From: Chloranthus sessilifolius
Taxonomy: Eukaryota; Streptophyta; Magnoliopsida; Chloranthales; Chloranthaceae
Length of the DNA: 64,000 nt
Direction of reading: 5' to 3'
Assembly (NCBI GenBank): GCA_021018995.1
Contig: CM037585.1
Span: 83,180,646-83,244,645, forward strand
Part shown: one piece after another, positions 6,371 through 64,000 of the stretch
Layout: each line of letters opens with the position of its first letter
Numbering within the stretch: the stretch's first letter is position 1
Program-made: the position numbers and the translations under genes
Notes under the pieces: generated by a model
Database searches by the model: none
What the model saw: the letters and a program-made list of their open reading frames with translations, nothing else
What the model was told of the DNA's origin: nothing

Positions 6371-7100
6371 TGCGAGCATGGATCCTCTCGAACTCGTCAC
6401 GGCGATGTGCTCTCGGTGGAACAAAATGTAGAGTCGCCACCCGGAGCTTTTGGTGACCCGGGAAACCTTTAAATCGATATTTTGAGCACCGAAATGCTAA
6501 ATATGATCTGATTTACCGGTCTTTGCGAAAGGCTCTAGGGTAGGGGCTTCGGTTATCGATCGGGAAGGATTTAGGCACCCGATCAACCCGCATGTAGCGG
6601 TCTCTATCTATGGGCAAAAATGAAAATAAATGGGCGGAGCTTCCCCTTGCTCGAAGGCAATACGATCCTATCAAACTTTGAGCAAAACCGAAATTTCAGT
6701 GGCGTAACGGCTTGAATCCTTGGACGGAGGAAACACCAAGAAGGTAGAGGAAGAAAGGGGTGAGCCGGAGCTCACGGGCCCTTGTTGCACCAAGGAAGAC
6801 CTTCACTTTGGCGTGCTTCTGATGACTTTGAATGGCTTAAACGGTAGAAGAATGGGTTCTAATGCTAGGATTCTTAGCTAGAAAGTGTAGGATGAAGCTA
6901 GGGACTAAACCTTAACTAAAAGGGGTGATCTAATGGTTGAAAAGGGTTTGAAAAAAAATGAAAATGCATGCTGGAATTCTGGTTGAAAATATAGGAAAAG
7001 AACTTTCTCTCACTAGGGCTCTCTCTCTCCTAACTCAAGCTTTCACCCTAATCTTTTCAACCTTGATTTTTTCAACCATTTTGGGAAGAGGGGGCCTCTC

Positions 7101-7108
7101 TATTTATA
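7101..7108 (-). promoter_or_regulatory. TATA box of Tat-1 3' LTR
   Basis: TATAAATA on the minus strand inside TCTCTATAAATAGAGA. The equivalent box is at 45313-45320 in the other LTR and at 60714-60721 in Tat-3. In all three LTRs the palindrome array lies roughly 280-500 bp upstream. Confidence 0.8.
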
Positions 7109-7387
7109 GAGAAGAGGTGGGTTAGAGGGTTACTTAAGAGCTAATTAGTTTAGCAATTAGGTAATCCTCCATCTAAGGTTTTCTAGGTTTTTAGAGTCTT
7201 AGAGGTTTGGGAAATTGGTTTCAATGGCGGATGATGGGGTGAGACCATGGGTGACTTAAGGGTTGCAAATAAGTTCAAAGGGGGTGCAACCAATCTTAAG
7301 ACACCTTCCTCAACCAAGGAGATGGTCAAAGGGTCAAACCAGATGAAGGAAATTCGAGCACCTGATGACAGTTATTATAGCTAAGTT

Positions 7388-7604
7388 GGGTGTATATATT
7401 ACATACACCCAGTTTATGCACAGTGATTTCCACAAAAATTAGGGGAGTTCTAGGAAGATGATGCCCGTGGTGGGTCCCACCTGTGCTGGGCATATATATT
7501 ATATATGCCCGGCCAAATTTGGCCCAAAACATGTTAGGCGTATATAATATATACGCCTGACCAAAATTGGGCCAGATTTGTCGGGCGTATGTAATACATA
7601 CGCC
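7388..7604. repeat. palindrome array A, Tat-1 3' LTR (four 23-bp copies)
   Basis: Copies at 7388-7410, 7488-7510, 7536-7558 and 7583-7605. Each is a near-perfect palindrome whose left arm is a variant of GGGCGTATATA. Arms co-vary: copy 2 has GGGCATATATA matched by its complement, and copy 4 has GGGCGTATGTA matched by ACATACGCC. Spacing is 100, 48 and 47 bp; spacers often begin GACCAAAATTGG or GGCCAAATTTGG. Confidence 0.95.
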
Positions 7605-7991
7605 TGAGCAAAAGGTTATTATTTTATGTGAAACTTCAAACGACCATAACTCTTGAACCACAACTCCAAATTGGGTGATCCTTGGCTTGTTGGAAAGCTG
7701 GAGAAGTCCTCCTTCCAATGGTATGTGGCCCACCCTTAGCAAGTGTTTGTATAAAAGTCTGTAGCTCTCCCTCCATCAACTGCTTAGAAGGGTTCAAGTT
7801 GAGTCTGGGAAGGGATCCTAGGGTTTAGGGGTGATTTCTAAGGATTGGGGGAATGGTTCTCATGGGTTTTAGGTGATTCCTAATGATCTGTATAGGTTAC
7901 CAAGGGTTCAGGGATGCCATCGTAAGCAGAGGAGTGCATTTCTTCCGGAGTACGGACTGATCGGGCCTTGGGCCGAATTTGGGTGTCTACA

Positions 7992-8004: not shown

Positions 8005-9879
8005 GGTATTCGATCACTAATGATCGGATGCCAAAGACAAGAGACATCCAAGGAGGTCCAAGGCACGTTTGATGGGTCCGCCTGGTTCAACTCAATTCTC
8101 AAACATTCATGGTGATGGTGAGTGTACGTAAGCCCTCTCATTTCAGGATATCGTCCGTGCCTCAAAGCTAATAGTTCTCAAGCGCATTGCGACATTACTG
8201 GGCATAACTGCGATGATCACAAAAAGTGTAAGCCCGCTAGCTAGGATATCATCCACTTCTTGAGGGAAATTATAGATTTGTGATGTTGAGTATTAATCTG
8301 AACCAGACAGCTTCATGAAACGGGATGATCGATCTATGCTTCAGAATCGATGCGAAGCACACAAAGCGAAGGCCTACAAACTTCTGCCCAATCCTGTGGG
8401 ATATTGACAGCTCCACTGGATTGGCCACGGGAGCCCTTACCTAGGTAAGGCTCGGAGTCTTTGGGCGAACCCATAAACCTCAAGGTTGTTTTAGCATGAC
8501 TTACCCGAGTGGAGCGAATGTTGATGTCGCAACACTTCTTGGGAATGCATGCCCATTTTCTGTGTAATAATTTTTTTTGTGTTTTCTTTCGTTTCGAGGC
8601 CTCTAAGCAAAGCTTAAAGACCTCTGGCAACTTTATTCTTGCACAACTCTTTAAGTGGATCAAATGTCAGTTGATACGCTTTAAGAATGCGTGCGCTCTG
8701 CTGGGGATAGGTGCACCTTGGGGATGTGCTCGTTCCAATGGCGAGGTGCTCCTAATTCACATGAATCAGAGTGCCTTAATTATAAACAAAGCTAAAAAGG
8801 ATCGGGCTAGAACCAAACATCCATCCAAAGAGATGGTCAATTTTAGCCTCCGTCCCTAATGAAATTACATCTTTCTAACTATACACAGACAGACACCCAT
8901 CAGGGGCGATAAGCAGCAAATAGGCGCGAATGACAGCCTCGACCCTAAGGTACAATTTACGAGGACAAACGACCATCCTGTGGATACCCAGATGCAAGTG
9001 CGTACATTCAACAGGGACACCGTGCCTATACAGGTTTCAAGCCTGTGTAAAAGGAAATAAAAGGGAATGTGCCCTTCGGTCTGTATGTTTGCACATAGTT
9101 TGGTCGGTTGTAATTTCATTTTTGACGGGTCAGTTTCGACTAACAATAAACTTTTCGAATGGTCTAAAGTCGGGTATACTCTTGGTCAACATGGATCCGA
9201 AGGTGGATGGTCAGAACAAAAACACGGAAGGTGGGGTCAACCTACTCAGGATTTTCACTACATAACAACAGGTTGTTATTCCAAACCTTCTCCTTTTTTT
9301 TTTTTTCTTTTTTCTCTTCATATATATTTTTGCACATGTCAGTTTGAGACTTTGAGCATGCTCAAACTGTTTTTATTTTTGCATGTATCCTTAGGCAGAT
9401 CAACTTGCCATGTTGATATACCTTAGGGACGTGTGCATTCCGGTGATGGGTCCTTGGTTTGCCTGCCGGATCAGGTATGGGGTGTCCCTGTGTAAGACGG
9501 GGTTTGAGAGTTTTTGGGTGAACCCGATCATTCCGAATTGATTTAACACGGTTCTCCGAGTGGCATAAATGGTCATTGCGACGTTCTTTTGAGAACTAGT
9601 GTGACTTTTCAGCAATTTCCTTTTTTTTTTTCTTTTTGGATCTTATGATTTTATGGAGCACTCAGCGGGTGCTTACAGATCTAGATCCGTTTATTGTGGC
9701 ATGGTCCCTTTGGGTCAGTCGAAGAGAGCTCGAAGGGCCATTTGGGGATGCGTGCACCATTGCCTGACGGTATGTGGGCTTCTAAGAGGGACCGAGCCGT
9801 GGTCCATAGCATAGGGGGTCTATCGGGCCTCAAAGCCAAAGAGAATGGCCGGGCTGTTTTAAAACTGCCATTTCTGGTC
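8005..9879 (-). other. Tat-1 3' internal region, non-coding
   Basis: No gene recognised. It is homologous to 61663-63358 of Tat-3: both hold the block ATTTACGAGGACAAACGACC (8952 and 62448), the following CAGGTTT-AAGCCTGT dyad and a GCACATAGTTTG word, in the same order. The conserved order between diverged elements marks it as an element-specific 3' region, possibly the downstream enhancer or terminator for the antisense gene that starts at its far end. Frames open here overlap on both strands without domain support. Confidence 0.6.
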
Positions 9880-9950
9880 GGGCATATATAATATATACGC
9901 CTGACCAAAATACAGCGAAAAATGGTCGAGCGTATATATTATATACGCCT
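9880..9950. repeat. palindrome array B, upstream of antisense gene 1 (two copies)
   Basis: 23-bp palindromes at 9880-9902 and 9928-9950, 48 bp apart, with the same arms and GACCAAAA spacer start as in the LTR. They end about 200 bp before the putative leader splice donor of antisense gene 1. Tat-3 has three copies of its own palindrome at the same place (63359-63482). Confidence 0.93.
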
Positions 9951-10153
9951 GACCAAAATTGGCAGTTTTTAAAGCGAAAACCCTCTCTTTCAAACTCTAC
10001 CTTCTTCCCTCCTTCTTTCTCTAGTCCGGGACAGCCCCTTAGGGTTTTGACATTCGATTTTTTTCCTTGAGTTCTATTGCCGGGAGTTGCGGGTGCGGAT
10101 CAAAAGACGTTCATTCGCCTCCGATTTTGGATCTATTTCCCCTCCCATTTAAG
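9951..10153 (+). promoter_or_regulatory. promoter and leader exon of antisense gene 1
   Basis: After the palindromes comes TTTTTAAAG and a pyrimidine-rich stretch (CTCTCTTTCAAACTC...), then TTAGGGTTTTGAC and a splice donor AAG|GTAATC at 10153/10154. Tat-3 shows the same layout: TATTTAAAAC at 63494, a CCCCCTCTCTTCC leader, CTAGGGTTCC and AAG|GTAATC at 63688/63689. The conservation supports a true plus-strand transcription unit, but the exact start site is inferred. Confidence 0.6.
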
Positions 10154-11164: not shown

Positions 11165-13501
11165 ATGTCGGGTGACGAAGGGCAAGGTCCACAGGAGGGG
11201 CCCGAGATGGCCTACGGTCCTCACGGGGAACATTTCATTTTTTCACAGCACTCATCTCACCCTTGGTATGAAATGCAAGGTGAGGCCGCTTGTGCTGGCC
11301 TCATGCATTGCCAGCATACCCACATGTCCAACTTTGGGATCGCTGGTCAGGTAAACAGATGAGCCCCTTTTTCTTTTGCTTTCCTTTGATGCCTTCATTA
11401 TACCACCTTGCCCCTATTTGACTGATGCCTTTTGCTTGCAGCCCCTGCCACACATTATGTTCTGGGGTGGTTAGTTTGACCTCCAGCACCTCATACTTTC
11501 TCTCCCCCAGGTGGTGAAGGACCTGCTCGCCCAGGCTAGTTTTGGGGACATCATTTCATGCCCCACTGTGAGGGCTGACACGGCCTATCTGAAGGCCCTG
11601 ATAGAGCGTTTCCGCCTTGAGACTATGACATTTCACATGGCCATGGCTGAGATGGCCCTCACGCCCGCAAACTGGTCCATGATCACTGTGGTTCGTGTTG
11701 GAGGGGTGCCGGTGATACCTGGTTGCACGCCTGATAGGGAGGAGGTGACTCGGCTGATAGGGGCCTACCCGACCTCTGGGAATGTTCGTGGCTCCGAAGT
11801 CAAGTTATCTTGGCTGGTTGGTTTGTTCGAGCCTCACGAGCTAGTGAACCTGGGCCAACCTGATGCGGCCATTTACCTCGAGCCAGAGCGTGCACTGATG
11901 CTGGCTCGCATCTCTCTGTTGTTCCTCCTGGGCAAGACTCTCCTCTCAAACACCAATGGAGGGCGGGTCTCGTTGTCCCTACTCAGTCTTATGGTGAACT
12001 GGGACACCGTACATCGGTTCGATTGGGGAGGTGCTAGCTGCACGGTGCTCATGTCTAGCTTGGTGCGAGCCGTTCTTGGGGATTCCAGTTCCGTTGTGGG
12101 CTTCTGGCCCGCTCTTGAGGTAATTTATCCTTTGGTCTCAATTCGTCCCCCCCTTCTCTTCTTTTTTTTTTGCATATTTGTTTATATCTGTTTGCTTTCT
12201 CAGGTGTGGGGGTATCTGCATTTCCAACCCGGTCGCCCTCTGCTTCTCTCCAAAGTCCCCACCTTCCCCCTTATGAGCAATTGGCATGCAAACTGCTGTT
12301 GGGACATGGGTATGAAGCACTTGGAGTTAGGGTTGCGCTCTCAGTTCGATCTGCTGATCCTAGAGCAGGTATAACACTTCCTCTCTTTGTAAATTTGATA
12401 GCACTTTTACGCTGTGGGCTCTGACCAAATGTATAAATCCCTTCTCTTTCGTTGAGCAGGCCATCCTTGATCCCTACGTTGGATCCCCCTTTTGGAACCT
12501 GGCTGCAGTGGGTCCTGGTCTAGGGCCTATTACTTAGGGGAGAGGGTGGTTCATTAGTATCGACCTCTCTTTGCCGTGCCCCAAGCTCCTCTAGATGATG
12601 TATTAGCTCCCGAAGGTTCTATTGAGATGCTCACTACTCGCTTTCTCCACCACGGGGTCCCCATTGACGACCTTCTCTTCCCTGGGGGATATCAGATGTG
12701 GTATGAGTCTTTACCCTATCATTCCTTGCTGCCTCGATTCGTGCTTGGTACCAACTTTTTGGCTTTTGGTGGTCCGCGCTCTCAGGTAATGTTCTTTCCC
12801 CTTCCTATTAGCAGCCTTCCATATGATTACCTTAATTGCCCTACTTTTTGAACAAAGACTGTTTCTCTCTATAGTTTGGACGGGGTGATGATTCAGATGA
12901 GGGGGATGAGGCAAATTGTTCTGGTGAAGCCTCAAAGTGGACCTTCCACCCTTCTAGTGTCGTGCTTCCTGCAGTTCTTCGAGGTCCAGGGGACCTTTAA
13001 GCGCTTGGATGATGCCTTTTTGTCGCATGTGTGCCGATGTGGCTGAGAAGGCACGCATATCCGCTGAAGCTATCTAGATTCCACCCCCTGAGCTGATCCC
13101 TGGGGTAATCTCTCCCTTGTTACCTTGCTCTTCTGTTATCTTGGATTATACCTGATGGCCTGCGTGACTGATACCTCTCTCTTTATCTTTTTGCTGCAGG
13201 ATTGTGAGTCGGCCCTAAACCAAGCCGAATATTATCGTAACATTGCTGGTCTTAGGGAGGTCGAGGTGGTGAGTGAATGTTGACCGTATTTACTTTCTGC
13301 TTGTTTCCCTAACTCATATTTACTTTCTGCTTCTCTCCCCAACTGATGGCCCTTCGTGTGCTTATGCAGCGTGCTCGTGAAAAGGAGTCGCGCTCTCTGC
13401 TTGATTGCATCTCTCAGGCGTGGACTCGGGTGGGGGAGACCCGTACTTTTCAGAGTGCGACCCGTCGCCGAAAGAAGTCCAAGGGGGCTGCTCAGGACTA
13501 G
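11165..13501 (+). pseudogene. antisense gene 1: plant mobile domain-like protein, spliced, decayed
   Basis: Plus-strand multi-exon gene, antisense to Tat-1. Proposed exons: 11165-11350, 11511-12119, 12204-12368, 12460-12785, 12875-13104, 13200-13268, 13370-13501, each bounded by AG and GT. The second exon encodes the hallmark plant mobile domain (PMD) block: ERFRLETMTFHMAMAEMALT, then a WSMITVVRVGG strand. Later parts read VWGYLHFQPGRPL. The last exon ends in a basic RRRKKSKG stretch, a likely nuclear signal, and a stop at 13499. Damage: a stop around 11474 if the short exon at 11442 is used, and a stop plus frameshift near 12535-12560. PMD proteins (MAIN/MAIL relatives) act in nuclear transposon silencing or gene regulation; a role for this copy is inferred only. 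Splicing keeps the frame in phase 0 across 12119/12204. Confidence 0.75.
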
Positions 13502-13894
13502 TTTTTTTTTTTCTGAAAGTTTGAAACGATAAAACAGTTTAGATTTTGAAATATTTGGGGAATATGTAATAATTTTCTTTTGATTTTTTTTGGATGGTCT
13601 CACAACTTTTAAGGTTTATATGAATGCTCCATTTATTTATTTCTCTGCCTCTTATGATGATATTTTTTTTTGTGTTTTCTTGCACGAAGCAGGTCAGAGC
13701 CCCTTCCAAAGATGGGGGAAGCTCACGTATGACCACCCACATATGTCCCATGGGTGCCACTTCATCCATGAGCGTGCTTGCCTGTGGGCTGCCCCGAGAT
13801 CAAAAAAGCAGACTAAGCGAAGTCCGCTCCTCTCTTGTGAAGTAAAAAGGATGGGATGACGCGAGGGGGGGCTACACTTCCCTGCCCTTTTACT
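13502..13894 (+). other. intergenic, 3' end of antisense gene 1
   Basis: Downstream of the stop codon; T-rich and then GC-rich with no domain. Small frames on both strands overlap here without support. It ends at the next palindrome array. Confidence 0.5.
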
Positions 13895-14012
13895 GGGCAT
13901 ATATATTATATACGCCAGGCAAACAAAACTGCCATGTTACCCTAGCGTATATAATATATACACCTAGCTAAAAATTTGAATTTTTGGCTGGGTGTATATA
14001 TTATATACACCT
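13895..14012. repeat. palindrome array C, upstream of antisense gene 2 (three copies)
   Basis: Palindromes at 13895-13916, 13943-13965 and 13990-14012, steps of 48 and 47 bp. The third uses the variant arm GGGTGTATATA with matching ATATACACC. The TATA box of antisense gene 2 lies about 155 bp downstream. Confidence 0.93.
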
Positions 14013-14166
14013 CCTATAACTGATGCCCAACTGATTCCCTATAACCCGAGCCCAACCCTCTTGGTCTCACTGTTCACTCGGGCTTTGCCTTTTTGCCCCT
14101 CCTTTTCTTTCTTTTTTTTTCTTTTTCTTTGATAAGCGGGTCCATCGCCCTACATTGACTTGGCTT

Positions 14167-14172: not shown

Positions 14173-14227
14173 GGACATCTTTGTACGTCTATGGACCCGC
14201 TTCCCGGCCCAAGTTCTCATACGGGGG

Positions 14228-15701
14228 ATGGGGTTAGTGTACTTCCCTGTTTGGACTCACGGCCCAGTTATTCGCAAAAGTGGTGTGCTAGCTTGGCTGA
14301 GGTGAGCTCGCTACTTTAGATCACCTCGGGTTATCCCGTCTTTACTCTCTCCTTGCTGTTCCTTTGTTGCCCGACCTCCTAAAGGCTGCTTTATCGTCAT
14401 GGGACCATAGGGCTCATGTCTTCAGATTCGAGTTCAGGGAGCTCACCCCAACCTTGGAGGAGCTAGCCTCTATCACTGGCTTGAGAATGCATCGGGGGCT
14501 TGCCAAAGTGGTGCCCAAACCGGGGTATGAAAAGGCGGTCTATGCGGTTTTTGGTTTGAAAAAGGGTGGGTATGAGAAGGGCTTCGCCGGTGGGCCCACT
14601 AGGTGCTCGGTGAAATTCCTGAAAGAACATTTTGGCGACTCGAATCTTCGAAAGTTGCCGGTCTGAGATCCTTTCAATGTGAAGGCCTTTGTCCTTTATT
14701 TGCTATCGGAAGTTCTCTTCTTTACTGGGGGCGAGACATTTTCTCTCGGGTTATGCGATGTTTTGACCGAATTAGAGGGAGGCCGCTCATTGGTGCACCA
14801 AGTTTTGGCTGAGATGTATCGGGGGCTGGATGCCTCAGCCTTGGGCTGGGTTATGATTCTACGCGGGAGTTCACTCCTCATTCAGATTTGGCTAGGAGAG
14901 CATTTGGCTATCATGGGGTCCGTACCGAGATTCTACTTGGTAAGAGGGGATGTGGCCCGGGGTTTTTTGACACGCTACTCGAGGCTGCCCCATGGGAGCA
15001 TCGAAGAACTGAGCCTGTGGCTATCTGATGCGGAGCTGATCTGGCATCTTCCCTGGTTGGATGACACCTTTCCGATTGTCTGCTCTCGGGATTGTGAGGG
15101 CATCGCACTTTTGCGGTTGACTAGTAGTACGTACTATTTCCCATCTCGGGTGCTTCGTCAATTCAGATATACCCAACACGTGCCGTGCACTGTGAGGCCG
15201 CCCTTGTGTTCCTTGATATTCTCTTAGGGTTCTCTAAGTGACCTAGATTACATAGCAGCACTCTGGGAGATCCGCCAATCAGCGCATATGTGTAGCTTGA
15301 CTCAGGGAGGTGCCCTTTCTTCCGATTACGAGGTTTGGCTGGCATCTGAGAGCTTACCTGCTCCTAACCCGGTTTCGATAGATGCGATAGAGACAGGGCC
15401 CTGGCCATTCAAGGAGACGGTGCTCTGGACTAGAATTGATTCTCTTTTTGCAGAGAAGTTGGCTTTGACTGAGACATTGGGGAAGGAGAGGGCCAGAGCC
15501 GAGATGGCGGAGGTGAGAGCTGCTACGGCCGAGAGCGAGGTTCTTCGGTTGACTGGGCTTTTGGCTGAGTCTCGCAGTGCAGTTGACGCTTCGCGGAGGC
15601 GGCAGAAGAGTCTTCATGGTACGTGGTTGACCGATCGAAATGCCCGTGAGGACTCTCTTCTTGCAAAGATCAGTGCTTTGAAGCGTGGTTCCTGCCCTTG
15701 A
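14228..15701 (+). pseudogene. antisense gene 2: PMD/DUF7745-like protein with C-terminal coiled coil, broken
   Basis: ATG at 14228 opens MGLVYFPVWTHGPV. A frameshift near 14296 leads into the frame with SSWDHRAHVFRFEFRELTP, the characteristic 'aromatic-V-F-R-F-x-E-LTPT-EE' block of the DUF7745/plant-mobile-domain group. A stop at 14664 interrupts it; the next open stretch (14679-15227) carries FVLYLLSEVLFF and a helical region typical of the same family. A further frame (15288-15701) is alanine/glutamate/arginine-rich, predicted coiled coil. The three stretches join into one product of about 480 residues if the breaks are ignored. Antisense to Tat-1 and head-to-tail with antisense gene 1. Family assignment is from motif memory, not a search. 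Confidence 0.65.
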
Positions 15702-17250
15702 CCAGTTCCTACACATACCTTAGATCATATATACAGAGGGGGGGATGATGCCCCTTAACAGAGATCTACTTCCTTTTTTGGGTTGTTTCTTTTTGTTTAT
15801 TATTGTTGTTTTTTTTTTTTATGTACCTGTAAAGATGGCAGAAGATAGAAAGGGTGTCAGGTTGTTATCTTTTTGGGACGTGACACCTCATATGTGATAC
15901 TTGTAAGAAAAGAAATGAAATCTGCTATACACATATATACATATATATTTTTTTCGGTGTTCGAATTTTCTTCCATACGTCTCGCGACGTAAGGTTTTTC
16001 TTATGGAAAAGGAAAACCTATTATCTTTTTTCAAATTTTTCTCCTACACAGGGTGAGGCTTCTTATGGGAAAGGAAAATATATTATCTTTTTTGAAATTC
16101 TCTCCTTTTTGTGATGTCGGTATTTTCAAGGCCAACCGGCGGGTCCTTTTTTTGAGCATGGTCGAACCCTGTTTAGGAGTTTCCGGCATTTCTTTTTGAA
16201 CGTGGATAGGTCATCTTCCCCGAGATTGATTGGTCTTCTGGCCTTACCTTTGGTCATGTGTTGGACGACGCGGTAGAGATTACATGCCTGGTTAGGATCC
16301 GATCTGATTTTAACATGAGCGGCCCAATCACAAAACGGGAAGGGGCTCAAGGAGTCAGACTAAAAAGGTGAACCAGAACAGATCCTCTCCTAATCTCTCT
16401 TTTCTGACATTTTTTTTTTTTGCTCACAGCGCCCAAGACGGGTTTTCGCCATGCCTGCCATCCCTATTTTTTCCCGCAGCGCCCTTTTGGGTTTTCACTA
16501 CGTCCATGGGTTCGCTCTCTTACCCCAAATGCCTTTTCAGGTTTTAACCTGGTCCACGTGAGTTCGCTGTTTTTACCAATGGTGCCCTTGCGGGTTTTCA
16601 CCACGTTCATCTTGCTTTGAACTCAAATTAATTTTCTTTTCTTTTTTCTTTTTTCTAGAACCAGAGAGCCACGACATGGACAAAGATTCCATCATAATCG
16701 GCTGGATGGGGTTCTGGTGTCGTCTCATGACTCGACTCATGTTGACTTGACAGATATTATGACTGCTTGCGAACCTACAAAGAGGGCTTCCTTCAAGGTG
16801 TAGCTTGGCCATGGGTAGGGTTAGGATTTGAAGGTACGCTGGGCTAAAAAAGTGTTTCCTTGATACGGCTTAAATTTTCTCAACATACTCTCTTCCTTGG
16901 GTTTTTAATATACATGCCCCATGATTCTTCTCTTCTTTCTTTTTTTTTTTGCTTCATTTCAGGCAATCTCTTTTTGAGGTTTTACTTGTTCGATTTTTTT
17001 TTTTTTTGAGTTTTGATAGTAACTCTATACACATGCATCTTTTCTCTCTCTTTTTTGTATACGCAGACATATTTTTTTTGGGGGGGAATGGGTTTATTGA
17101 AAGAGAGGTCCAGGCTCAAATGGGGTAGCAAAGGATATCATCATTTTTAGGGATACTTTCTGGCTATTGTGTTTGAAATGACGGCCTCTTTTGGGTGATT
17201 CTTAAGCAGCCACGTATCTGTTTCATCAATACTTACCTTATCCTGATAGA
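15702..17250. other. spacer between antisense gene 2 and integrase, convergent 3' ends
   Basis: No gene. The plus-strand antisense gene 2 and the minus-strand integrase end facing each other here. The stretch has many T8-T12 runs, a GGAAAAGGAAAA word repeated near 16005 and 16065, and a degenerate repeat at 16430-16612. It may hold polyadenylation signals for both strands, but none is clear. Confidence 0.5.
16430..16612. repeat. degenerate tandem repeat, about 50 bp, four copies
   Basis: The word GCCCTTTTGGGTTTTCACCA and variants recur at about 16430, 16479, 16528 and 16580, each followed by a C-rich CGT/CAT-GGTTCGC stretch. Copies are strongly diverged. Confidence 0.6.
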
Positions 17251-31440: not shown

Positions 31441-31448
31441 TAAAAAAG

Positions 31449-31591
31449 CCACTGCCCTAAACAGTTGTAAAAAAAGGAGTGGTTTTATTTTACCACTATA
31501 CAAGACAGTGGTTTATGAACTTCATAAACCACTGTCTTGTATAGTGGTAAAAAAAAACCACTCCTTTTTTTACAATTGTTTAGGGCAGTGG
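31449..31591. repeat. 143-bp near-perfect hairpin in CACTA subterminal region
   Basis: Left arm begins CCACTGCCCTAAACAGTTGT at 31449, right arm ends with its complement at 31591; the centre is at 31520 (GAACTTC). The only differences seen are a few bases, including one in the T/A runs and one in CAGTTG/CAATTG. A stem of this length would fold in RNA. Confidence 0.93.
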
Positions 31592-31681
31592 TTTTTTGAA
31601 AAAAAACCACTGTCAAAGACAGTAGTTTTTTGAAAAAACCACTATTTAAGGCAGTGGTTTTTTGGGCTTTTTCACGTAGTG
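31592..31681. repeat. right terminal region of CACTA
   Basis: Repeated CAGTGGTTTTTTG / AAAAAACCACTG words in both orientations end at CACGTAGTG (31673-31681), the inverted terminus. Confidence 0.9.
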
Positions 31682-39868: not shown

Positions 39869-41723
39869 TGTTGACAAGTGAAAAATACCATTTTTCACCC
39901 CTGAACTTGAGTCTTGATAGACCTTTGAGAGAACTAAATAAGTGTTTTAAGTGCTTATGTTGCAGCTAACAATAAAGACAGGCTTAACCATAAAAGCAGC
40001 TTAAAAGTGCCAATAAGATGACAATCCATGTCAATCCAAAGGAAGAAAGTGAAGAAACAACCTCATCAGCTGTTGAAAGGTCTGAATAGAAGAAGCAAAG
40101 ACCTGGAAGAGAAGTATGGAACAATTCGAACAGAAAAATGCACTACAGAGTCCTTTTCGCAAAGAACCTGTACTTTTCGCAAAGAACCTGAAACTCTGCG
40201 AAAAGGAATAAAACTCCAGGCGTAGCATTCGAAGAGCATCTGAACTGTTCGAAGAGAGGATTGAACTTTGCGAAAAGAAGAAAACACAATTCGAACAGAA
40301 CCAGAACATTGCGAAAAGAGCTTCAGGAGTCACAACACTCTGCGAAAAGGCCCCTAAGCTGTGCGAAGAGGCATTCTAGAGATTCGCAACTTTAACAAGG
40401 GCAATTCAGTAATCTGTTGCATGCATCCCAATGCATTTTTAAATCGATGGACATTCTAGAGGGTTCTAAGCATGAAGCGAAGGAATATTCCACCCCACGT
40501 GAGCACCTAGAGAGGGAACAACTTGGCGGGAACTTCTAGAAACTCTAACAAACTTTCAAAATGTATAACAGAGTTGATGCCTTTTTCACCTGATTGGCTG
40601 AACCAGATCGAGGAATTTTGATTGGCCAGAACAGATCTGGATCCCCGTGCTCGACTACCATTGGTCAATACAGATCTGAGAACCTCTGATTGGTTGATGC
40701 ACATCTGAGCTGGACCTGGGGAAAGCTATAAATAGATGAAGCATTTGCCCAATTGGGGCATCCAGATTTTGAGTTTCATTTCTAATCCCCCATTTCCCAG
40801 CCAGACAGCTTGTCTGCAATCCTTGTAATAGCCTACTTTGTACTTGCATTTGAGAGCTGTGAGATACTGCTGTAACTCAAAGGAGAGTTTGCATCCAAGA
40901 CTACAAATTCGAGAGCTGTTAAGCCGTTGCTCTGTAAATTGTAAGGATGAATTTTAAAAGGTTATTGTAAACTATGCATTCTCCATTGGACTCATGTCAA
41001 GGGTTCCCTCTGATCTCCTCAGTACATTAGACTCCTTTAGATTCATTGTTTTGCATGCAATTTCCCTTGATTCATTAATCCTGTGAGAATTAGTGTTTGT
41101 AGCCTAGTCTCTTACAGCATTTGCAGTGATGTTTCTTGTTCTGAATTGAGGATTTGGATTAAAGACTATTGGATGGTTTTTGGCCATTAAAGTGGACAGA
41201 CCATAGCCATAAGTGTAAGCCTAATCCTTGAATTAGATTTATCTCTCTTACATCTGTGCTTGTAGCCAGATGAAGATTGGATCACCTCTGTTGAGCTGCA
41301 GTTATTCTCATTAGATTTCAAAGACCAAATCAGATTTAGATATTACTTCTCCATCTTTGTTTCAATCATTCCCCCAACTCGGATCTGGATCATTTAGTTT
41401 AAATTTTCCTTTCTTCTTAGTTAGTTAAACGTGACAAATTCAAACCTCTCATCTTATCAGTTTTCTAGATAGGATAAGAAGCCAGATCTGGTAGCTCAGA
41501 TCTGGAGGTTTATCTTACATTTTAGACAAATTCTCTGTGGACGATCTTTCACTCACTTACTTTTAAAACTTGCTACAATTGGCCCTGATCTTGCAGGCTA
41601 ATTCTCTTCTAACTGTGCTGATATTTCTTTAATTTTTTATATAGTCTAGAGCCACTGTAATTTAGCGGTTATAAATCTGTTTTCAAAACACATATAAATC
41701 AAGCACACTAAGAAGCAACGACA
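39869..41723 (+). mobile_element. Athila-1 3' LTR
   Basis: 1855 bp, matching 17626-19473. Phased palindrome array at 40122-40370, TATAAATAG at 40727-40735. Where the array copies differ between the two LTRs the change is often at the central CG, for example CTCTGCG here versus CTCTACG at 18095. Confidence 0.95.
40122..40370. repeat. phased palindrome array, Athila-1 3' LTR
   Basis: Same copies and steps as 17879-18127 in the 5' LTR, offset by 22,243 bp; first copy CAATTCGAACAG at 40122, last CTGTGCGAAGAG at 40359. Confidence 0.92.
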
Positions 41724-42934
41724 GGTACTTCAACCTCTACCAGGAGGACGGCCTCGGTTCCATACACAAGGGAGAATGGTGTTGCCCTTGTAGCGGTACG
41801 GATCGATGTTCGGTAGTTCCACAAAGTAAATGGCAGCATTTCACTCCAATCTCGATAAGTGATGACCATTTTCTCGAGCATGCAGACGACTGTCTTGTTC
41901 GTGGCTTCCATGGCTCCATTAGTTTGAGGCCGATAAGGGGATGAGCGATGGTGCTTGATCTTGTATTGCTCGCAGAAGTCCCGGATGCGCTTATTCGCAA
42001 AGTTTGTGCCGTTGTCCTTAATGATATCTTTGGGTACACCAAATCGGCACACAATATTATTCTTGAGAAATTTCTCAACGTGACCGGCAGTGATGTTGGC
42101 ATATGATGCCGCTTCTACCCGCTTGGTGAAGTATTCAATGGCGACGAGGATGAATCGGTGTCCGTTCGATGCTTTCGGATTGATCATTCCGACAACATCA
42201 AGGCCCCAGGTAGCAAATGGCCAAGGGGTGGTCATGCAGTGAAGATCAATGGTAGGAGCGTGTATCAGACTGGAGTGTTCCTGACACTTATAGCATTTTT
42301 GAACATGTTTGCAGCAATCAAATTCCACGGTGGTCCAAAAGTATCCATGTCGTAGAATTTTCTTAGCGAGCATGTGACCGTTGACATGGGCTCCGCACAC
42401 TCCCTCATGGATTTCTTTCATAATACTGACCGCTTCACTTTTAGTAAGGCACCTGAGTAAGATGTTATTGTATGATTGCTTGTAGAGGCATTCCCCGCAA
42501 ATGACGTAACCTGCCGCTAAATGTTGAATGGTTCTACGGTCTGTTTTGGATGTACCCTCTGGGAAAGTTAGGTCTTGAGGAAATTCTTGATATCTGAGAA
42601 CCAAGGTGGCTCATCATCGGGCTTTGTAGGTTCCTCAATCTGGAGGCAGAAGGCCAGCTCATTCCTCTGCTCGATCATGATCGGCTTCATCTCAACACCA
42701 TAGGGGATTTCAATTATTGGCACCAAAGTTGCTAATGCGTCGACAAAGCGATTCCTTATCCGAGGGATGTATGAGAAAGTTACATCTTGGAAGCAAGCTA
42801 TTAGATCCTCGAGGTGTTCATGAAAGGGGATCAGTTTCTCTTCTTTCGTCTTCCAGTCACCATTCGTCTGACATATGATTAACTATGAATCGCCAAAAAC
42901 TCGAAGGTGAGTTACATTCAAATCAAGGGCTGCC
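41724..42934 (-). pseudogene. Tat-1 RNase H (C-terminal part) and integrase core
   Basis: Minus strand. 42934-42620 reads the end of an RNase H: VFGDS near the start, WKTKEEKLIPFHEHLEDLI and RNRFVDALATL, with a stop near 42884. A frameshift near 42570 leads to the integrase frame: EGTSKTDRRTIQHLAAGY, zinc-binding CCKHVQKCYKCQEHS, catalytic D in TWGLDVVGMI, D in IIKDNGTNF and E in NGAMEATNK. It runs to 41724, where Athila-1 interrupts it, and continues at 17625-17251. RT, protease and gag are missing upstream. Tat/Ogre elements often carry an additional RNase H next to integrase. Confidence 0.9.
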
Positions 42935-43561
42935 TGTAGACCGGGTAAGGGCCGAATACCTTCCGTTGACGAGTGTTGTATCGATGCCTTGGGTAAGGGC
43001 CAAATACCTTCCTGGTTCTCCTTCTACGAGCCGGGTTTGAGGTTGCCGTAGTGACGGTCACACCAAAATATATATTTTTTGTTTTTTTCTTTTTTCATTT
43101 TTTGTTTGGTTTTTAGAAAATGATTTTTTTTTGGTTTTTGAAGATGATTTTATTTTATTTTTTTGTTTTATTTTTTTTTGTTTTGAAGATGATTTTTTTT
43201 TTTATTTTTTTTTTTATGATGGAAATTAACTCCCCTCTACCTAGATGAATGATGACCTGGTGCCCAGGGTCAATTCCCGTCTTGGGTGGTATATGCACCT
43301 TTAGCAGGTCCCCCGACGGGATCCGACACACTTCGGAAGAAGCGAAAGGGAACCCTTTCGTTCTATTGAAGGCGAGGGAATCCACGCAAACGACCCGATC
43401 CCCCGGAGCAGATCAATGAGAAGTTGCCTTCTCTTAACCGGGCGGGGGCATGTTGGGTGTTATCAAATGTGGGAGGCTACTGCGGGTACTAATACCGCTA
43501 ATCGAAGAATTGGGGTGGTGGATTGGGCCTCAGATCAGGTTGCTGTGACCCAGTTTATACT
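42935..43561 (-). other. Tat-1 leader side of the internal deletion
   Basis: No coding sequence. Contains a short duplicated word GGGTAAGGGCC-AATACCTTCC (42945 and 42989), a 150-bp tract of T-runs (43060-43215) and a GC-rich block. The deletion that removed gag-PR-RT probably has its junction here, between 42935 and 43220. Confidence 0.5.
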
Positions 43562-43725
43562 GGGCGTATATGTTATGCACGCCCGACCAAAAAAGGGCAG
43601 ATTTAGCTGGGCGTATATATTATATATGCCTGGCTTAAATATGGGGATTTTGGCTGGGCGTATATATTATATACGCCTGGCTATTTTCTAGGGATTTTGG
43701 CTGGGTGTATATATTATATACGCCT
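43562..43725. repeat. palindrome array D, Tat-1 leader (four copies)
   Basis: Copies at 43562-43584, 43609-43631, 43656-43678 and 43703-43725, exactly 47 bp apart. Spacers share GGATTTTGGCT. On the minus strand this array lies about 850 bp downstream of the PBS. Confidence 0.95.
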
Positions 43726-44558
43726 GGCAAAAACAGCTTTGTCAGTTAATTTTGACAGTGAACAGCAAGCCCAAAAATGGGTCTTTGAACTGGTTTCCTG
43801 AGAGGAATGCTCCCGGGGACTGCTGTGTATGTTATCGGGTCCCTCCTTTCCATTTCCTAGGGATACACGGTTGAATTCGAGTTGTCTACGCTCTCACCAA
43901 TGCGGGTTTGACGGCTTTATCAAAATTGGCAACCCAACTGATATACCTCCAGCGGAAGCGCCTTCTCAGGTATTGAAAGGGGTGGTTCTTTTCAGGATCA
44001 TCACAACTAGGGCTGCCGCCTTACTGGGAACCGGGTAAATTATATCTGTGCCTAAACCCCCCAAAAACTATCCAAAATACATAAAACAGATTTGATTAAG
44101 TCCTCGCACTGTTGGTTCATTTTTTATTACAGATTTTTAAAGGGGAGTGAAATTAAGTCCAAAATCAGGTCGGGGATGACAAGCCCGTGCCGCCTCAACG
44201 GGCCGGCGTTCAATGGTGAGATATGATGACTGAAATGAAAAGTGCACGTAGTCCCGCCAATCGGCTAAGGCTCGTAAATGACTGAAATTTAAATGACGTG
44301 AAAAGTAAATGCGAGCGGGCCCGCCAAACGGCTAAGGCGACTTAAATGACAAGAATCGTAAAAACAGAAATTTAAGGGCGCACGTAGGCCCGCCAATCGG
44401 CTAAGGCACTTAAAGGACTGAATCATAGGGGTGAGTACGCTAGTAAAAACAACAAAAATAGAGAAAAAATAGCAGGAATAAAATAAAAACAAAAAAAAAA
44501 ATAGCTATGGTTAGTAATAAAAAGAAAGGCCAACAAGAGGGGAAGCGCTAGGGTGATT
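43726..44558 (-). other. Tat-1 5' leader
   Basis: Non-coding region between PBS and palindrome array D. It contains three direct repeats of CCCGCCAATCGGCTAAGGC at 44253, 44320 and 44389 (period about 68 bp). Confidence 0.6.
44253..44407. repeat. 68-bp tandem repeat in Tat-1 leader
   Basis: CCCGCCAAWCGGCTAAGGC at 44253-44271, 44320-44338 and 44389-44407 with A-rich stretches between. Confidence 0.85.
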
Positions 44559-44576
44559 TCCCCAGCAGAGTCGCCA
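44559..44576 (-). other. Tat-1 primer-binding site
   Basis: Minus strand TGGCGACTCTGCTGGGGA, four bases inside the LTR end. It ends in the TGG expected of a tRNA 3' complement and matches the tRNA-Arg-type PBS known for Ogre/Tat elements. Confidence 0.85.
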
Positions 44577-44580
44577 TCTA

Positions 44581-46203
44581 TGTGAGCATGGATCCTCTCG
44601 AACTCGTCGCGGCGATGGCTCTCGATGGAATAAAATTTAGAGTCACCACTTGGAGCTTTTGGTGACCAGGGAAACCTTTAAATAGATATTTTGAGCACCG
44701 AAATGCTAAATATGACTCTGATTTACCGGTCTTTGCCAAAGGCTCTAGGGTAGGGGCTTCAGTTATCGATCGGGAAGGGTTTAGGCACCCGATCAACCCG
44801 CACTTACTGGTCTCTATCTATGGCCAAAAATGAAAATAAATGGGCGGAGCTTCCCCTTGCCCGAAGGCAATACGGTCCTATCAAGCTTTGAGCCAAACTG
44901 AAATTTCGGCGGCGTAACGGCTTGAATCCTTGGACGAAGGAAACACCAAGAAGGTAGAGGAAGAGCGGGGTGAGCCGGAGCTCACGGGCCCTTGTTGCAC
45001 CGTGGAAGACCTTCACTTTGGCGTGCTTCTGATGGCTTTGAATGGCTTAAACGGTAGAAGAATGGGTTCTAATGCTAGGATTCGGTAGCTAGGAAGTGTA
45101 GGATGAAACTAGGGACTAAGCCTTAACTAAAAGGGGTGATCTAATGGTTGAAAAGGGTTTGAAAAAAAATGAAAATGCATGCTGGAATTCTGGTTGAAAA
45201 TATAGGAAAAGAACTTTCTCGCACTTGGGCTCTCTCTCTCCTAACTCAAGCTTTCACCCTAATCTTTTCAATCTTGATTTTTTCAACCCTTTTGGGAAGA
45301 GGGGGGCCTCTCTATTTATAGAGAAGAGGTGGGTTAGAGGGTTACTTAGGAGCTAATTGGTTTAACAATTAGTTAATCCTCCATCTAAGGATTTCTAGGT
45401 TTTTAGGGTCCTAGAGGTTTGGGAAATTGGTTTCAATGGCGGATGATGGGGTGAGACCATGGGTGACTTAAGGGTTGCAAATAAGTTCAAAGGGGGTGCA
45501 ACCATTCTTAAGACACCCACCTGAACCAAGGGGATGGTCAAAGGGTCAAACCAGATGAAGGAAATTCGAGCACCTGATGATAGTTACTGTAGCTAAGCTG
45601 GGCGTATATATTACATATGACCAGTTTATGCACAGTGATTTCCAAAAAAATCAGGGGAGTTCTGGGAAGATGATGCCAGTGGTGGGTCCCACCTGTGCTG
45701 GGCGTATATATTATATACGCCCAACCAAATTTGTCCCAAAACATGTCAGGCGTATATAATATATATGCCTGACCAAAATTGGGCCAGATTTGCCGGGCGT
45801 ATGTAATACATACGCCTGAGCAAAAGGTTGTTATTTTATGTGAAACTTCAAACGGCCATAACGCTTGAACCACAACTCCAAATTTGGTGATCCTTGGCTC
45901 GTTGGAAAGCTGGAGAAGTCCTCTTTCCAATTGTATGTGGCCCATCCTTGGCAAGGGTTTCTATAAAATTATATAGCTCTCCCTCCATCAACTGCTCAGA
46001 AGGGTTCAAGTTGAGTCTGGGAAGGGATCCTAGGGTTTAGGGGTGATTTCTAAGGATTGGGGGAATGGCTCTCATGGGTTTTAGGTGATTCCTAATGATC
46101 TGGATAGGTTCCCAAGGGTTCAGGGATGCCATTGGAAGCACAGGGGTGCATTTCTTTCGGAGTACGAACTGATCAGGCCTTGGGCCGAATTTGAGTGTCT
46201 ACA
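44581..46203 (-). mobile_element. Tat-1 5' LTR
   Basis: 1623 bp, matching 6371-7991. TATAAATA at 45320-45313, palindrome array 45600-45817. The TSD CTGTG follows at 46204-46208. Confidence 0.93.
45600..45817. repeat. palindrome array E, Tat-1 5' LTR (four copies)
   Basis: Copies at 45600-45622 (decayed right arm), 45700-45722, 45748-45770 and 45795-45817; steps 100, 48 and 47 bp, as in the other LTR. Copy 2 here has GGGCGTATATA arms, whereas its partner at 7488 has GGGCATATATA on one side and the matched change on the other. Confidence 0.95.
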
Positions 46204-59994: not shown

Positions 59995-61649
59995 TGTGCA
60001 ACCGTGGGAATCGATGCGGTCCCCATCGCGACAATGCACTCCCTAACGAAAAAAAAATATAGAGTCGCCACCCGGAGCTTTCAGTGCCCCGGGATACCTA
60101 GTTCATTTTTATGAGCACCTAAGTGCTAAAAATATGACTCTGAATCCGGTCTACACAAAAGGCTCTTGGGTAGGGGCTTCGGTTATCAATCGGGAAGGTT
60201 TTAGGCACCCGATCGACCTGCTTAGCGCAGTCTCTACTAATGGCCAAAAATAAAATAAAGTAGAAGCAAATAAAATAGCTTCCTCTTGCCCAAAAGGGCT
60301 TAGAATCCTATTTGTGCTCCTTCGTTCCTACCAAAAAATTGGCGGCGTAACGGCACAAATGAGAGGATGGAGGGAGCTAGAAAGAGATAGGAGAGGAAAG
60401 GGGAGAGCCGGAGCCCTCGGGCCCTTGTAGCACCATAGAGGAGCCTTGCGTGGCTTGCTTTGATGAGCTCTTGAAGGCCTTGTATGGTGGAAAATGGGGT
60501 TCTAACTCCTAAGACTTAAAGCCAAGAGGTAGGGAAGGGAGGCTAGGGGATCACACACACCTAGGCTATGGGTTTTGGATGTAAGAACAAGCTTGGAAAG
60601 AGGTTTTGGAATTCTGGAATTTCGATGAAAATAGTGCACAAAAGGGAGGAAGAACTTCTAACTTTGAACTTCTCACTTGGAACTTCTCACTTCTCACAAG
60701 GGGTGGGGGGCTCTATTTATAGGAAAAGGGTGGGTTAGGAGGCCACTTAGATGCTAATTGAGGTTAGCAATTAGGTGATCTCAAATCTAAGGTTTCCTAG
60801 GATTTTGAGAGCTTGGAAATGTGTGAAGGTGGTTCTAATGGTGGATGATGGGGTGAGGCTTTAGGCCACTTGGAGGGTTGCAAATATGTAAGGAATGGGT
60901 GCAACAGAACTATCAAAACACACTCCAAAGGTTGAGGTGGTCAACAAGTCAAACCCCAAACATAAATTTTGGGGCAAAAACCCATTGTTACTGTTCATAT
61001 GCCTGGCGCAACTAATAGTTGCGCCAGGATAAAGCACAGTAAAATAGTGAGGAATAGTGCTGGAAGTTAGCTCGCGGGGTGGGGGCCACCTTTTAAACTT
61101 GGCGCTACTATTAGTTGCGCCAGGCTTAAAATCTGGGAGAATTGGCCTGGCGCAACTAATAGTTGCGCCAGGAAAAATTTATACCTGGCGCAACTATTAG
61201 TTATGCCAGGCCATTTATGGGGAGAAATAGCATGGTAGTCGTGCCAAATCCCTGCGGGGCCACCTCGAAATTACCTTCCTGCCCTCCGGGTTCGGATTGC
61301 CACATCTTCTGATATATACCTCCGATTGGGGCGATTCCTGAACCGTTGGAAAGCTAACGACCTCTACCCTTCAATGGTATAGGAGTTGGTCACTATAGAG
61401 GGTCGTAGCTAGTTCTGGTGCACCCCTCCTCCTTATTGCCCGGGGAGGTTAGGTTGGGGTTAAAAAGAGGGTTTCTATGGGTCGGGGTTGGCTTCTAAAG
61501 GTTCGGGGTAGGTTCTTGGGGGATCTAAGGTGATTCCTAAGGGTTTAGGGTGATTCCTAAGGGTTCCATACATGCCATCAAAAGCTCAAAAATGCGCTTC
61601 TCTCAAAAGGTGTTTCGATTGGGCCTTGGGCCAAATTTGGGTGTCTACA
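59995..61649 (-). mobile_element. Tat-3 3' LTR
   Basis: 1655 bp. Plus-strand reading starts TGTGCAACCGTGG and ends GTGTCTACA. TATAAATAGAGCC (minus strand) at 60721-60714. Four 27-bp palindromes at 61002-61210. U5 contains GAGTCGCCA at 60062-60070. The possible left TSD is ATCAA (59990-59994); its partner is outside the window. Confidence 0.88.
61002..61210. repeat. palindrome array, Tat-3 LTR (four 27-bp copies)
   Basis: Copies at 61002-61028, 61098-61124, 61146-61172 and 61184-61210. Left arm CCTGGCGCAACTA with its complement; the centre is AAT or TTA. Steps 96 (2 x 48), 48 and 38 bp. Distance to the TATA box is the same as in Tat-1 (about 280-490 bp). Confidence 0.95.
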
Positions 61650-61662
61650 GATGCCCCTCTTT
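61650..61662 (-). other. Tat-3 polypurine tract
   Basis: Minus strand AAAGAGGGGCATC before TGTAGACACCC. Confidence 0.8.
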
Positions 61663-63358
61663 GGTATCCGATCACTAATGATCGAATGTGAAAGAAAAGA
61701 GACATCCGAAGAGGCCAAGGCATTACTGACGGGTCCGCTGTATTCAAAATGAACTTCAAATATCAGGTGAGTAACATGGTGAGAAAATGAAAGCCCTAGA
61801 GTGCCAGGCTAATCATTTGTTTCTCGAGGTAATCGGTTCCCAAGCGCTTAGCGACATTACTAGGCATAATTGAGGTGGAATGAGTTGCGAAAGCCCAATA
61901 GCTGGGAAAAACATTCGCCTCTTGAGATTTTTTGAAGGTGATTGATGTTCAAGATTCATTCTGAATCCAACAGCTTCGTAAGTAAGAGGGGTGGTCGACC
62001 CACATTCAAAGATAAGCACGAAGCAAACATACGCAAGGCTCCACAGTTTGCGTCCAATCCTACAAGGCATTTGGCGACCTTATTGGATTATTCGCGGGTG
62101 CCCCTACTGAAAGCAGGGTTCGAGATCTTTGGGCGAACCCATCGATCCCAAAGTTTATTTAGCAGGACCACCTGAGCGAAGTGAATAGATGTCACAATGC
62201 TTTTTAGGGGTGCGTGCCATTTTTCAAAACCCGCCTTAGATCCACATGACCCAGAGTGTCCAGCTTCAAATACCACTAAACAGATCCAACCAGTTATCTG
62301 GTGCTAATCCAAAAGGGACATCCAATCCTGGTTTCTGCCAACAATGATCATAAGCATCAATTAACTATGCATAAACATGCACCCATTAAGGGCAATAAGC
62401 AATAACAAAGGCGATGGAAGCCCCGATCTGGACCCACCTGGGTACAATTTACGAGGACAAACGACCATCATATGGATACTCAGACACATGGCGTACACTT
62501 TATAAGGATACCACTGCTCATACAGGTTTTAAGCCTGTAAAAAATAAAAGGGAAATGAACCCTTCTGAATGCATGGTTGCACATAGTTTGATTGACACAT
62601 AATCTCATTCTCGACAGGTTGGTTTCAACCAACGATTGACCTTTTGTAACGGAGAATCTGAAGCTTAAGGCACTTTAGTCCACATGAGTCCAAGCGCTTG
62701 TCGCAAGTATTTAGCAGTGGAGTTGACCTGATCGAAACATTGATTGTTTGACCGAGACCGACACCATTGCTCCTGCCTTAAGGCAGGATCCATAGATCCG
62801 AGGCGAACCTCCTACTCAGGACTTTGATGTGGCACAGCTGCATTGCTGATAAAATATTGACGTTTTACCGCTTTATGCTTGTGCGCTGTACGGGTTTAAA
62901 TCTATTTTTGTTTTTTCCATCATTTTATGCAATTTTTTTGAATTTTTCAACTGTTATTTTATGGGATTTTTTGAATTTTGAAGCTATGTGAATTTTTTGG
63001 AATTTTGGAGTTATTATTTTACGTGAATTTTTGTTGGAATTTTTGAGTTATTATTTTATGTGAATTTTTTGGCATTTTGGAGTTATTATTTGGATTTATC
63101 TCATGAATATTTTCGGCTTCTTTGTGGGGATTATATTTTTTGTTTTTTTGGATTTTCCTTGTGTGTAGGACCGGGGTGCTCATTGACCTTGGCCTGTCCT
63201 TATTTTAGCACGGCTCTCTTGGCAAGTCGAAGAATGACCGAAATGTCGCCTTGGGGAGTGCGTGCATATGTCGGAAGTGACAAAATGAACAAACAAAAGG
63301 AAGTGGGGGACCGGTCTTCCCATCTAACTCGTACTAGGCCTAAGACCCGACCTGAGTA
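61663..63358 (-). other. Tat-3 3' internal region, non-coding
   Basis: Blocks shared with 8005-9879 of Tat-1 in the same order, including GATCACTAATGATCG near the LTR and the ATTTACGAGGACAAACGACC block. Repeated TTTTGGAGTTATTATTTTA words at 62940-63080. No gene recognised. Confidence 0.6.
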
Positions 63359-63482
63359 CCTGGCGCAACTATTAATTGCGCCAAGCCATTATGGGCCCAA
63401 AAAAAAGGCTGGCGCGACTAATAGTTGCACCAAGCCAATGGAAGGCAAACTTTTGCCTGGTGCAACTATTAGTTGCGCCAGG
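63359..63482. repeat. palindrome array, Tat-3 antisense promoter (three 27-bp copies)
   Basis: Copies at 63359-63385, 63408-63434 and 63456-63482, 49 and 48 bp apart. Same palindrome as in the Tat-3 LTR, with a few mismatched arm positions. Confidence 0.95.
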
Positions 63483-63688
63483 TTTGGCTGGGTATTTAAA
63501 ACAACCCGAACTCGGGTAGTGGGGTCTCATTTCGAATTCTCCCCCCTCTCTTCCTCTTTGAAACCGAAAACCGCTCCCCCTCCCCCTAGGGTTCCTTTAC
63601 GTTGCCTTTAGCGTGCCCATTGCCGTTGTTTTGCTTGCGGATCGATCGCGAGCCTACGCCAGACAAAAAACCCCTTTTTCTTCATAAG
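63483..63688 (+). promoter_or_regulatory. promoter and leader exon of Tat-3 antisense gene
   Basis: TATTTAAAAC at 63494, about 12 bp after the last palindrome, then a CT-rich leader and the splice donor AAG|GTAATC. Mirrors 9951-10153 of Tat-1. Confidence 0.65.
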
Positions 63689-64000
63689 GTAATCTTTTAA
63701 ACTTTTTTTTTCTTGATTTTTCTTGCTTCTTGTTATGCAAATATGATCAAGATCTTGCATTTCTAGATGAAGAATAGTTTATTTTTGTTGTAAGCATATT
63801 GGTTGATGATATGTGAATGATTTTTTTTTTTATGAATGATGCCTTCTTCTTTTCTTTTTTTGATTTTATGCATAATATATATGTATATGCAAATGATAAT
63901 TTTTTTGTTTTTATTTGTGCCTAAAAAAAGGGGGTTTTAATTCTATTACTTTTTGTTTTCTTTTTTTTTCACCTCAAAGCAAGGATTTTATACATTCTTT
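63689..64000 (+). other. start of T-rich leader intron of Tat-3 antisense gene
   Basis: Begins GTAATCTTTTAAAC and is T-rich with a TATGAATGATGCC word, like the intron at 10154-11164. The coding exons should lie beyond the window. Confidence 0.55.

Follow-up and report, generated by a model that had tools for sequence, protein, structure and literature searches.

The 64-kb window (the whole stretch of DNA that was analysed) contains two related LTR retrotransposons, Tat-1 and Tat-3, both on the minus strand, with Tat-3 extending beyond the upper end of the window. Tat-1 is bounded by a 3' LTR at 6371..7991 and a 5' LTR at 44581..46203, which lie on the minus strand and are 93.8% identical to each other. 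Within a few bases of the 5' LTR, on its inner side, TGGCGACTCTGCTGGGGA at 44576-44559 on the minus strand may match tRNA-Arg and is a candidate primer binding site. The integrase core (rve) occupies 41711..42610 on the minus strand, and two genes on the plus strand, antisense to integrase, lie between pol and the 3' LTR: gene A, whose PMD exon spans 11475..12374 (PF10536, E=3.6e-19), and gene B at 14191..15701, whose frame is broken in the window copy and which matches PMD above the cut-off for 14667-15227, with a weak DUF7745 match upstream. An extra ORF with PMD (PF10536) in this place, which both Tat-1 and Tat-3 have, is a trait of the Tat/Ogre lineage of Ty3/gypsy, and integrase and PMD together resemble those of Gypsy elements, an assignment made by gene content rather than by tree.

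The Tat-3 3' LTR was placed at 60002..61649 (minus strand) from the sequence and from alignment to the paired Tat-1 LTRs; its lower end is approximate, and its upper end is marked by a terminal TGTAGAC, adjacent to the purine tract 61650-61662. It contains a TATA box, TATAAATAG, at 60713..60721 on the minus strand. Antisense gene A of Tat-3 has within the window, on the plus strand, a TATA-like box, TATTTAAA, at 63493..63500 and a presumed leader and first intron at 63501..64000, and its PMD exon follows just outside, at 65276-65923 in the frame of the window (L035:2276-2923; match to PMD with E=1.2e-15). Further out lie gene B, for which the PMD match is partial, at about 76473-77956 and integrase at 80608-79742 on the minus strand.

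Both elements carry arrays of palindromes, with a GGCG..CGCC core and TA-N-TA at the centre, next to their promoters. In Tat-3, seven palindromes of 25-27 bp, mostly spaced by ~48 bp, lie at 61002-63482 within two arrays. The U3 array (61002..61209; type B, arm CTGGCGCAACTA; 25-mers at 61003, 61099, 61147 and 61185) lies upstream of the LTR TATA box at a distance of 280-490 bp, and the second array (63359..63482; also type B; 25-mers at 63360, 63409 and 63457) directly precedes antisense gene A, whose TATA-like box starts ten bases past the last palindrome. Two palindromes, at 61002 and 61146, are perfect 27-mers, and the remaining five are 1-3 bases off type. Tat-1 has type A palindromes (arm CGGGCGTATATA) in the U3 of its 3' LTR, again upstream of the LTR TATA box (7387..7606; sites at 7387, 7487, 7535 and 7582), in its 5' LTR (45599, 45699, 45747 and 45794) and before antisense gene A (9879..9951; 9879 and 9927). 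Arrays precede the second antisense gene in both elements, at 13894..14013 in Tat-1 (type A; 13894, 13942 and 13989) and at 76001-76302, outside the window, in Tat-3. On the far side of pol, a leader array of Tat-1, 0.85-1.0 kb inside the 5' LTR (43561..43726; 43561, 43608, 43655 and 43702), is also of type A. A sequence-only reading of this DNA had reported 27-bp palindromes in Tat-3, with this spacing and in these two positions relative to the LTR TATA box and the antisense gene, and all seven were recovered where it had placed them.

In the window the type A and B palindromes are confined to the arrays, and the Tat-3 palindrome recurs in the genome. All 24 type A or B sites in the window (at most 7 mismatches) fall inside Tat arrays, and a search of the window for nearly perfect palindromes with mixed base composition returned 14, of which 10 fall in the Tat-1 and Tat-3 arrays and four outside (25667, 25679, 31508 and 31587); five first-order Markov controls contained none. 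The exact Tat-3 27-mer, with its central base free, has 1549 copies in the 2.17-Gb genome and its reversed control has none. Across all sequence examined we counted 57 A and 43 B sites, after four duplicates from overlapping loci had been dropped, and 45 of the 57 adjacent same-type pairs closer than 250 bp were spaced by 47-49 bp, which bears out the spacing proposed earlier. Within each type, the inner 12 positions hardly vary (the A sites deviate in 19 of 684 cells and the B sites in 8 of 516), and the CpG positions deviate more (42/228 and 25/172); the one-sided CpG changes, with counts of 19 and 12 for C>T and of 17 and 9 for G>A, have the look of deamination affecting both strands and show no pairing bias. 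A random or microsatellite-like insertion in these copies only, which had been named as an outcome that would count against a regulatory role, is ruled out by the 1549 exact copies, by the equivalent positions in the two families and by the restriction of the window sites to arrays.

The two palindrome types resemble each other more than had been thought. In register, 8 of the 12 positions of the A and B arms agree (binomial chance 0.0028), and seven of nine tested Tat-1 sites map centre to centre onto Tat-3 sites with an offset of 0, whereas the spacers between the palindromes align poorly between the elements. The types differ symmetrically, on both arms. Positions have thus been kept while inner bases have changed on both arms, in every array compared, and the A and B palindromes look homologous, that is, like diverged descendants rather than unrelated replacements. 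The earlier description of a completely different palindrome on a retained architecture accordingly stands for the architecture and fails for the palindrome.

Palindrome type goes with the type of the PMD gene beside it. We took 30 Tat-1-like loci from 131 listed PMD matches and 30 Tat-3-like loci from 150 listed; type A was visible at 21 of the 30 Tat-1-like loci and type B at none, and type B was visible at 11 of the 30 Tat-3-like loci and type A at none, so that the 32 loci with a visible A or B type all match their PMD type, with none crossed. Of the loci without a visible type, most were covered by little upstream sequence, and in many cases the array nearest the gene falls outside the 1.5 kb covered; when fuller upstream stretches of 10 Tat-3-like loci were inspected, nine had type B and one (L074) had no site. 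Four Tat-1-like loci (L007, L027, L032 and L033) carry a third, CGATATA-type palindrome in the same region, which at L007 is the only type within the stretch examined, and the PMD tree does not place these four together, which speaks against a strict one-to-one code. The match concerns two PMD-palindrome pairings. A distant PMD family, represented by six loci, has no array in about 2 kb upstream, and we therefore reject the notion that arrays are a general feature of PMD genes.

The antisense proteins have been kept, and they differ between the families. Median pairwise dN/dS of the PMD exon is 0.23 among Tat-1-like and 0.16 among Tat-3-like copies (30 each, stop codons skipped), and judged by these ratios the gene A PMD protein is under purifying selection. 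Between Tat-1 and Tat-3, the PMD exon has 57% amino-acid identity (dS 1.39) and gene B 61% (with synonymous sites saturated) and 53%, compared with 84% (dS 0.24) for integrase; near-identical antisense proteins, the other outcome that would have spoken against a regulator, were thus not what we found. Fixed differences between the families occupy 48 of 216 PMD columns and, within the PMD exon, show no clustering in one segment (permutation p = 0.46), contrary to the expectation that divergence would concentrate in a single domain. Neither a protein search nor the PDB gave a scoring sequence relative for the PMD exon, and a single-sequence AlphaFold model of it (pLDDT 36.8) was too poor to show a DNA-binding fold.

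The unequal divergence of antisense genes and integrase has a sharp boundary. Identity between Tat-1 and Tat-3 breaks at 16480..16660 of Tat-1, just 3' of pol, from about 54-66% on the antisense side to 85-94%, non-coding DNA included, on the pol side. At third codon positions, the window Tat-1 integrase differs from that of Tat-3 by 0.144 and from a Tat-1-type integrase (L083) by 0.47, while its PMD exon differs from that of Tat-3 by 0.523 and from a Tat-1-type PMD exon (L011) by 0.176; L011 and L083 belong to one Tat-1-type element elsewhere, whose integrase is the sole Tat-1-type integrase compared. These opposite distances imply that in the window Tat-1 a 3' block of Tat-1 type is combined with an integrase of the Tat-3 kind, and this one documented copy indicates that the block of PMD gene, palindromes and U3 can move as a cassette between pol backbones. 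Another exchange, at C9:52942362, is suggested from position and identity alone. An integrase matching that of the window Tat-1 lies near 8 of 150 Tat-3-type PMD matches and near 1 of 130 Tat-1-type matches (the window's own excluded; Fisher p 0.04), a comparison that is only supportive because both lists are of top-scoring matches. Retroviral replication copies the U3 of both LTRs from the 3' LTR, so a single exchange at a point between pol and the antisense genes would carry the putative regulators, their operators and both U3s together. By the same token, the match between palindrome and PMD type could come from linkage alone, because both sit in one exchangeable block, and their co-inheritance could need no interaction between them.

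More types were found on the frame that A and B share. A degenerate pattern built from the bases common to the two types (GGCG-N-A-NN-TA-N-TA-NN-T-N-CGCC) matches 30,184 sites genome-wide, and its reversed control matches none. The first 50 of these, which all lie on contig C1, include 35 whose six arm bases are symmetric (CAACTA 21, TATATA 11, CAAGTA 2 and CATGTA 1), against 34% expected if half-sites were independent, so that at least four symmetric arm types occur among the 50 sites listed. The other 15 have unequal half-sites, five of them the same mix of CAACTA and CATGTA, and none of the 14 multi-site clusters among the 50 mixes TATATA with the CA types. The survey of further types suggested earlier has been productive as regards arm types, within a frame set by the search pattern.

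We propose that the Tat elements encode a dimeric regulator that acts through family-specific operators, a reading of the sequence to which we assign a probability of about 0.5. The palindromes would be the operators, serving as dimer sites for a protein that the element itself encodes in antisense; the PMD protein of gene A is the likeliest candidate, and gene B may take part. Through the arrays in U3, before the antisense genes and, in Tat-1, in the leader, one protein could act on all promoters of the element as well as on its own, and the 47-49 bp spacing of neighbouring sites would allow several dimers to be loaded. The families have retained the site positions and much of the palindrome, including GGCG and the central TA-N-TA, and differ in the inner arm bases, and from these differences we propose that the protein of each family reads its own copies. 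Antisense genes and U3 form one linked 3' cassette that can be swapped between pol backbones, an exchange by which, we propose, regulator and operators would stay matched. We infer the binding by the PMD or gene B product, the dimeric mode and the role, be it activating, repressing or anti-silencing; our leaning is towards a protein that activates or protects the LTR while autoregulating. The sequence-only reading had seen here the product of a co-evolving regulator-operator pair. The agreement of palindrome and PMD type, the diverged antisense proteins and the genome-wide recurrence of the sites favour this idea; the homology of the two palindromes, the dispersed differences in the PMD exon and the sufficiency of linkage weigh against it. 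The frequent unequal half-sites and the very stable RNA folding of the arrays also count against protein-bound operators.

The main competitor is that a family of host transcription factors binds the palindromes, with element families tuned to different factors and the antisense genes merely linked. Palindromic repeats upstream of the TATA box and of env in Sirevirus LTRs have been discussed as sites for nuclear factors (PMC2829016), and linkage within the 3' block could account for the PMD match under this explanation as well. However, one arm type occupies every Tat-1 array, whichever promoter it precedes and whichever side of pol it lies on, and the same holds for the three Tat-3 arrays examined; moreover, at least four symmetric arm types in one genome would require several host factors of the same family. 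We regard host-factor sites as the less likely reading.

Still less probable, in our judgement, is a role at the level of RNA, in processing, export or packaging or as a source or decoy of siRNA, in which symmetry would be kept for base pairing. The leader and U3 arrays would indeed sit in genomic RNA, and RNA folding of the arrays is much more stable than that of shuffled sequence (z -7.4, -12.6 and -6.8), but such folding energy is expected of any palindrome array. Sequence beyond mere complementarity is conserved within families, including TA-N-TA in what would be the loop, the unequal half-sites noted above make up 15 of the 50 listed, and the Tat-3 array nearest gene A stops ten bases short of the TATA-like box. 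The CpG changes, with their lack of pairing bias, also argue against hairpins, as weak evidence that reflects decay after insertion. Neutral hitchhiking of functionless, minisatellite-like arrays, homogenised by slippage or conversion and drifting into types after an old divergence, would suit the tandem repeats of unknown function often described in Retand elements (PMC11963269), but it is improbable given the equivalent positions at three separate locations, with offset 0 at seven of nine sites, and the nearly invariant inner bases amid poorly aligning spacers.

Returning to the self-encoded regulator, we consider a more far-reaching version of it tentatively, at somewhat less than even odds. 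In this version the element families would use a private operator code, in which a PMD dimer reads one dyad frame at every promoter and the inner arm bases serve as the key to the family, and recombination would shuffle this lock-and-key cassette between pol backbones, giving rise to modular, mutually insulated regulatory networks over tens of thousands of sites in a single genome. Reports of PMD genes in Gypsy elements go back years and, to our knowledge, assign them no function; a palindrome whose spelling tracks the PMD clade offers a concrete candidate for a PMD target. Titles and abstract openings of the open-licence literature yielded no work that joins PMD genes to promoter palindromes.

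Several known systems share parts of this arrangement. PF10536 is reported in 57% of Ogre elements (PMC6317226), and these Gypsy elements with a PMD extra ORF probably represent the same lineage as Tat-1 and Tat-3; the function of such extra ORFs is questioned there, and the words 'palindrom' and 'antisense' are absent from the main text. PMD is likewise described as an extra ORF of Gypsy elements in PMC9289625. Like the Tat elements, Sireviruses have family-variable, CpG-containing palindrome arrays that precede both the LTR TATA box and an additional gene (PMC2829016). Sireviruses are, however, Ty1/copia elements with an env-like gene and a CGG-CCG rather than a GGCG..CGCC core, and that account, as far as it goes, gives no pairing with an element regulator. 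Arabidopsis MAIN and MAIL1 are PMD proteins tied to transcription, to the silencing of transposable elements and to the promoter DOWN motif (PMC7156037; PMC9899485), although contact of their complex with chromatin is described as not established (PMC9899485). They are encoded by host genes, and the DOWN motif, CATGCAGTTT, is not a long dyad, unlike the Tat palindromes. Retand elements also have antisense genes between pol and the 3' LTR, encoding TRP28 proteins for which DNA binding and regulation have been proposed (PMC11963269); they carry Transposase_28 and tandem repeats, with no target sites named in that account, whereas the Tat elements carry PMD and promoter palindromes.

If the proposed regulator is real, it would extend to LTR retrotransposons the VANC idea of an element-made protein that recognises only its kin, and it would explain how such pairs remain matched, by travelling in a single exchangeable 3' cassette to which the U3 of both LTRs belongs. 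VANDALs, the source of VANC, are MULE DNA transposons. The comparison with VANC, already drawn in the sequence-only reading, is apt in its logic of a self-encoded protein and family-specific clustered motifs, and clustered non-coding motifs that differ between related families, a VANC-type trait, are present in Tat-1 and Tat-3; it does not extend to the protein itself, as PMD is not VANC. In the Arabidopsis VANDAL/VANC system, the element protein reads short, clustered, family-specific non-coding motifs with which it co-diverges (PMC5735166; PMC10398659), a relationship that for the Tat elements is proposed only. For VANC21, which recognises a 9-base motif in tandem repeats, both binding and loss of methylation have been demonstrated (PMC5735166; PMC10398659). 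The Tat elements, unlike VANDALs, are LTR retrotransposons with integrase that carry 25-bp dyads at fixed promoter positions, and the candidate for the protein that reads them is PMD.

A further palindrome type was found among copies whose plant mobile domain (PMD) is of the Tat-1 kind. A palindrome with CGATATA arms lies upstream of the PMD at four loci (L007, L027, L032 and L033), and in some Tat-1-like copies this palindrome accompanies or replaces type A, the Tat-1 palindrome; the copies that carry it are dispersed across the PMD tree. Separately, five of the 50 sites listed from the degenerate-frame palindromes have the identical asymmetric combination of a CAACTA and a CATGTA half-site (contig C1 of the same genome, positions 35533407, 48142745, 48966200, 61217207 and 2723749), a recurrence that would fit joint recognition of two half-site types, or the gradual displacement of one by the other.

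A distant PMD family is represented by six copies (L077-L082), which are high-scoring Pfam PMD matches ranking below host-like genes. No palindrome array was found within about 2 kb upstream at these loci; four of the six copies share a lone palindrome, TCCACCCAC..GTGGGTGCA, located 1.4-1.9 kb upstream of the PMD.

The window's Tat-1 copy appears to lack gag and RT, judging from length, because only 1.6 kb (42942-44581) separates its integrase region from the 5' LTR. Nested within its integrase gene is a + strand LTR element (17626-41723) with LTRs of 96.1% identity, a Transposase_32-like ORF (PF20167 match below cut-off) and an 86-bp inverted repeat (31434-31606; 1-base gap, 93% complementary).

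In near arrays of the Tat-1 type, which precede antisense gene A, the main pair is bracketed at a distance of about 30 bp by another palindrome, GGGCAGTTTTAAAACTGCC. It flanks the array on both sides at L008, L011, L024 and L031, on one side at other Tat-1-like loci, and persists in degraded form in Tat-1 itself (9849-9970). GGGCAGTTTTAAAACTGCC contains GCAGTTT, which also occurs within the PMD-linked DOWN motif of Arabidopsis, CATGCAGTTT (PMC9899485), a sequence match that may be coincidental.
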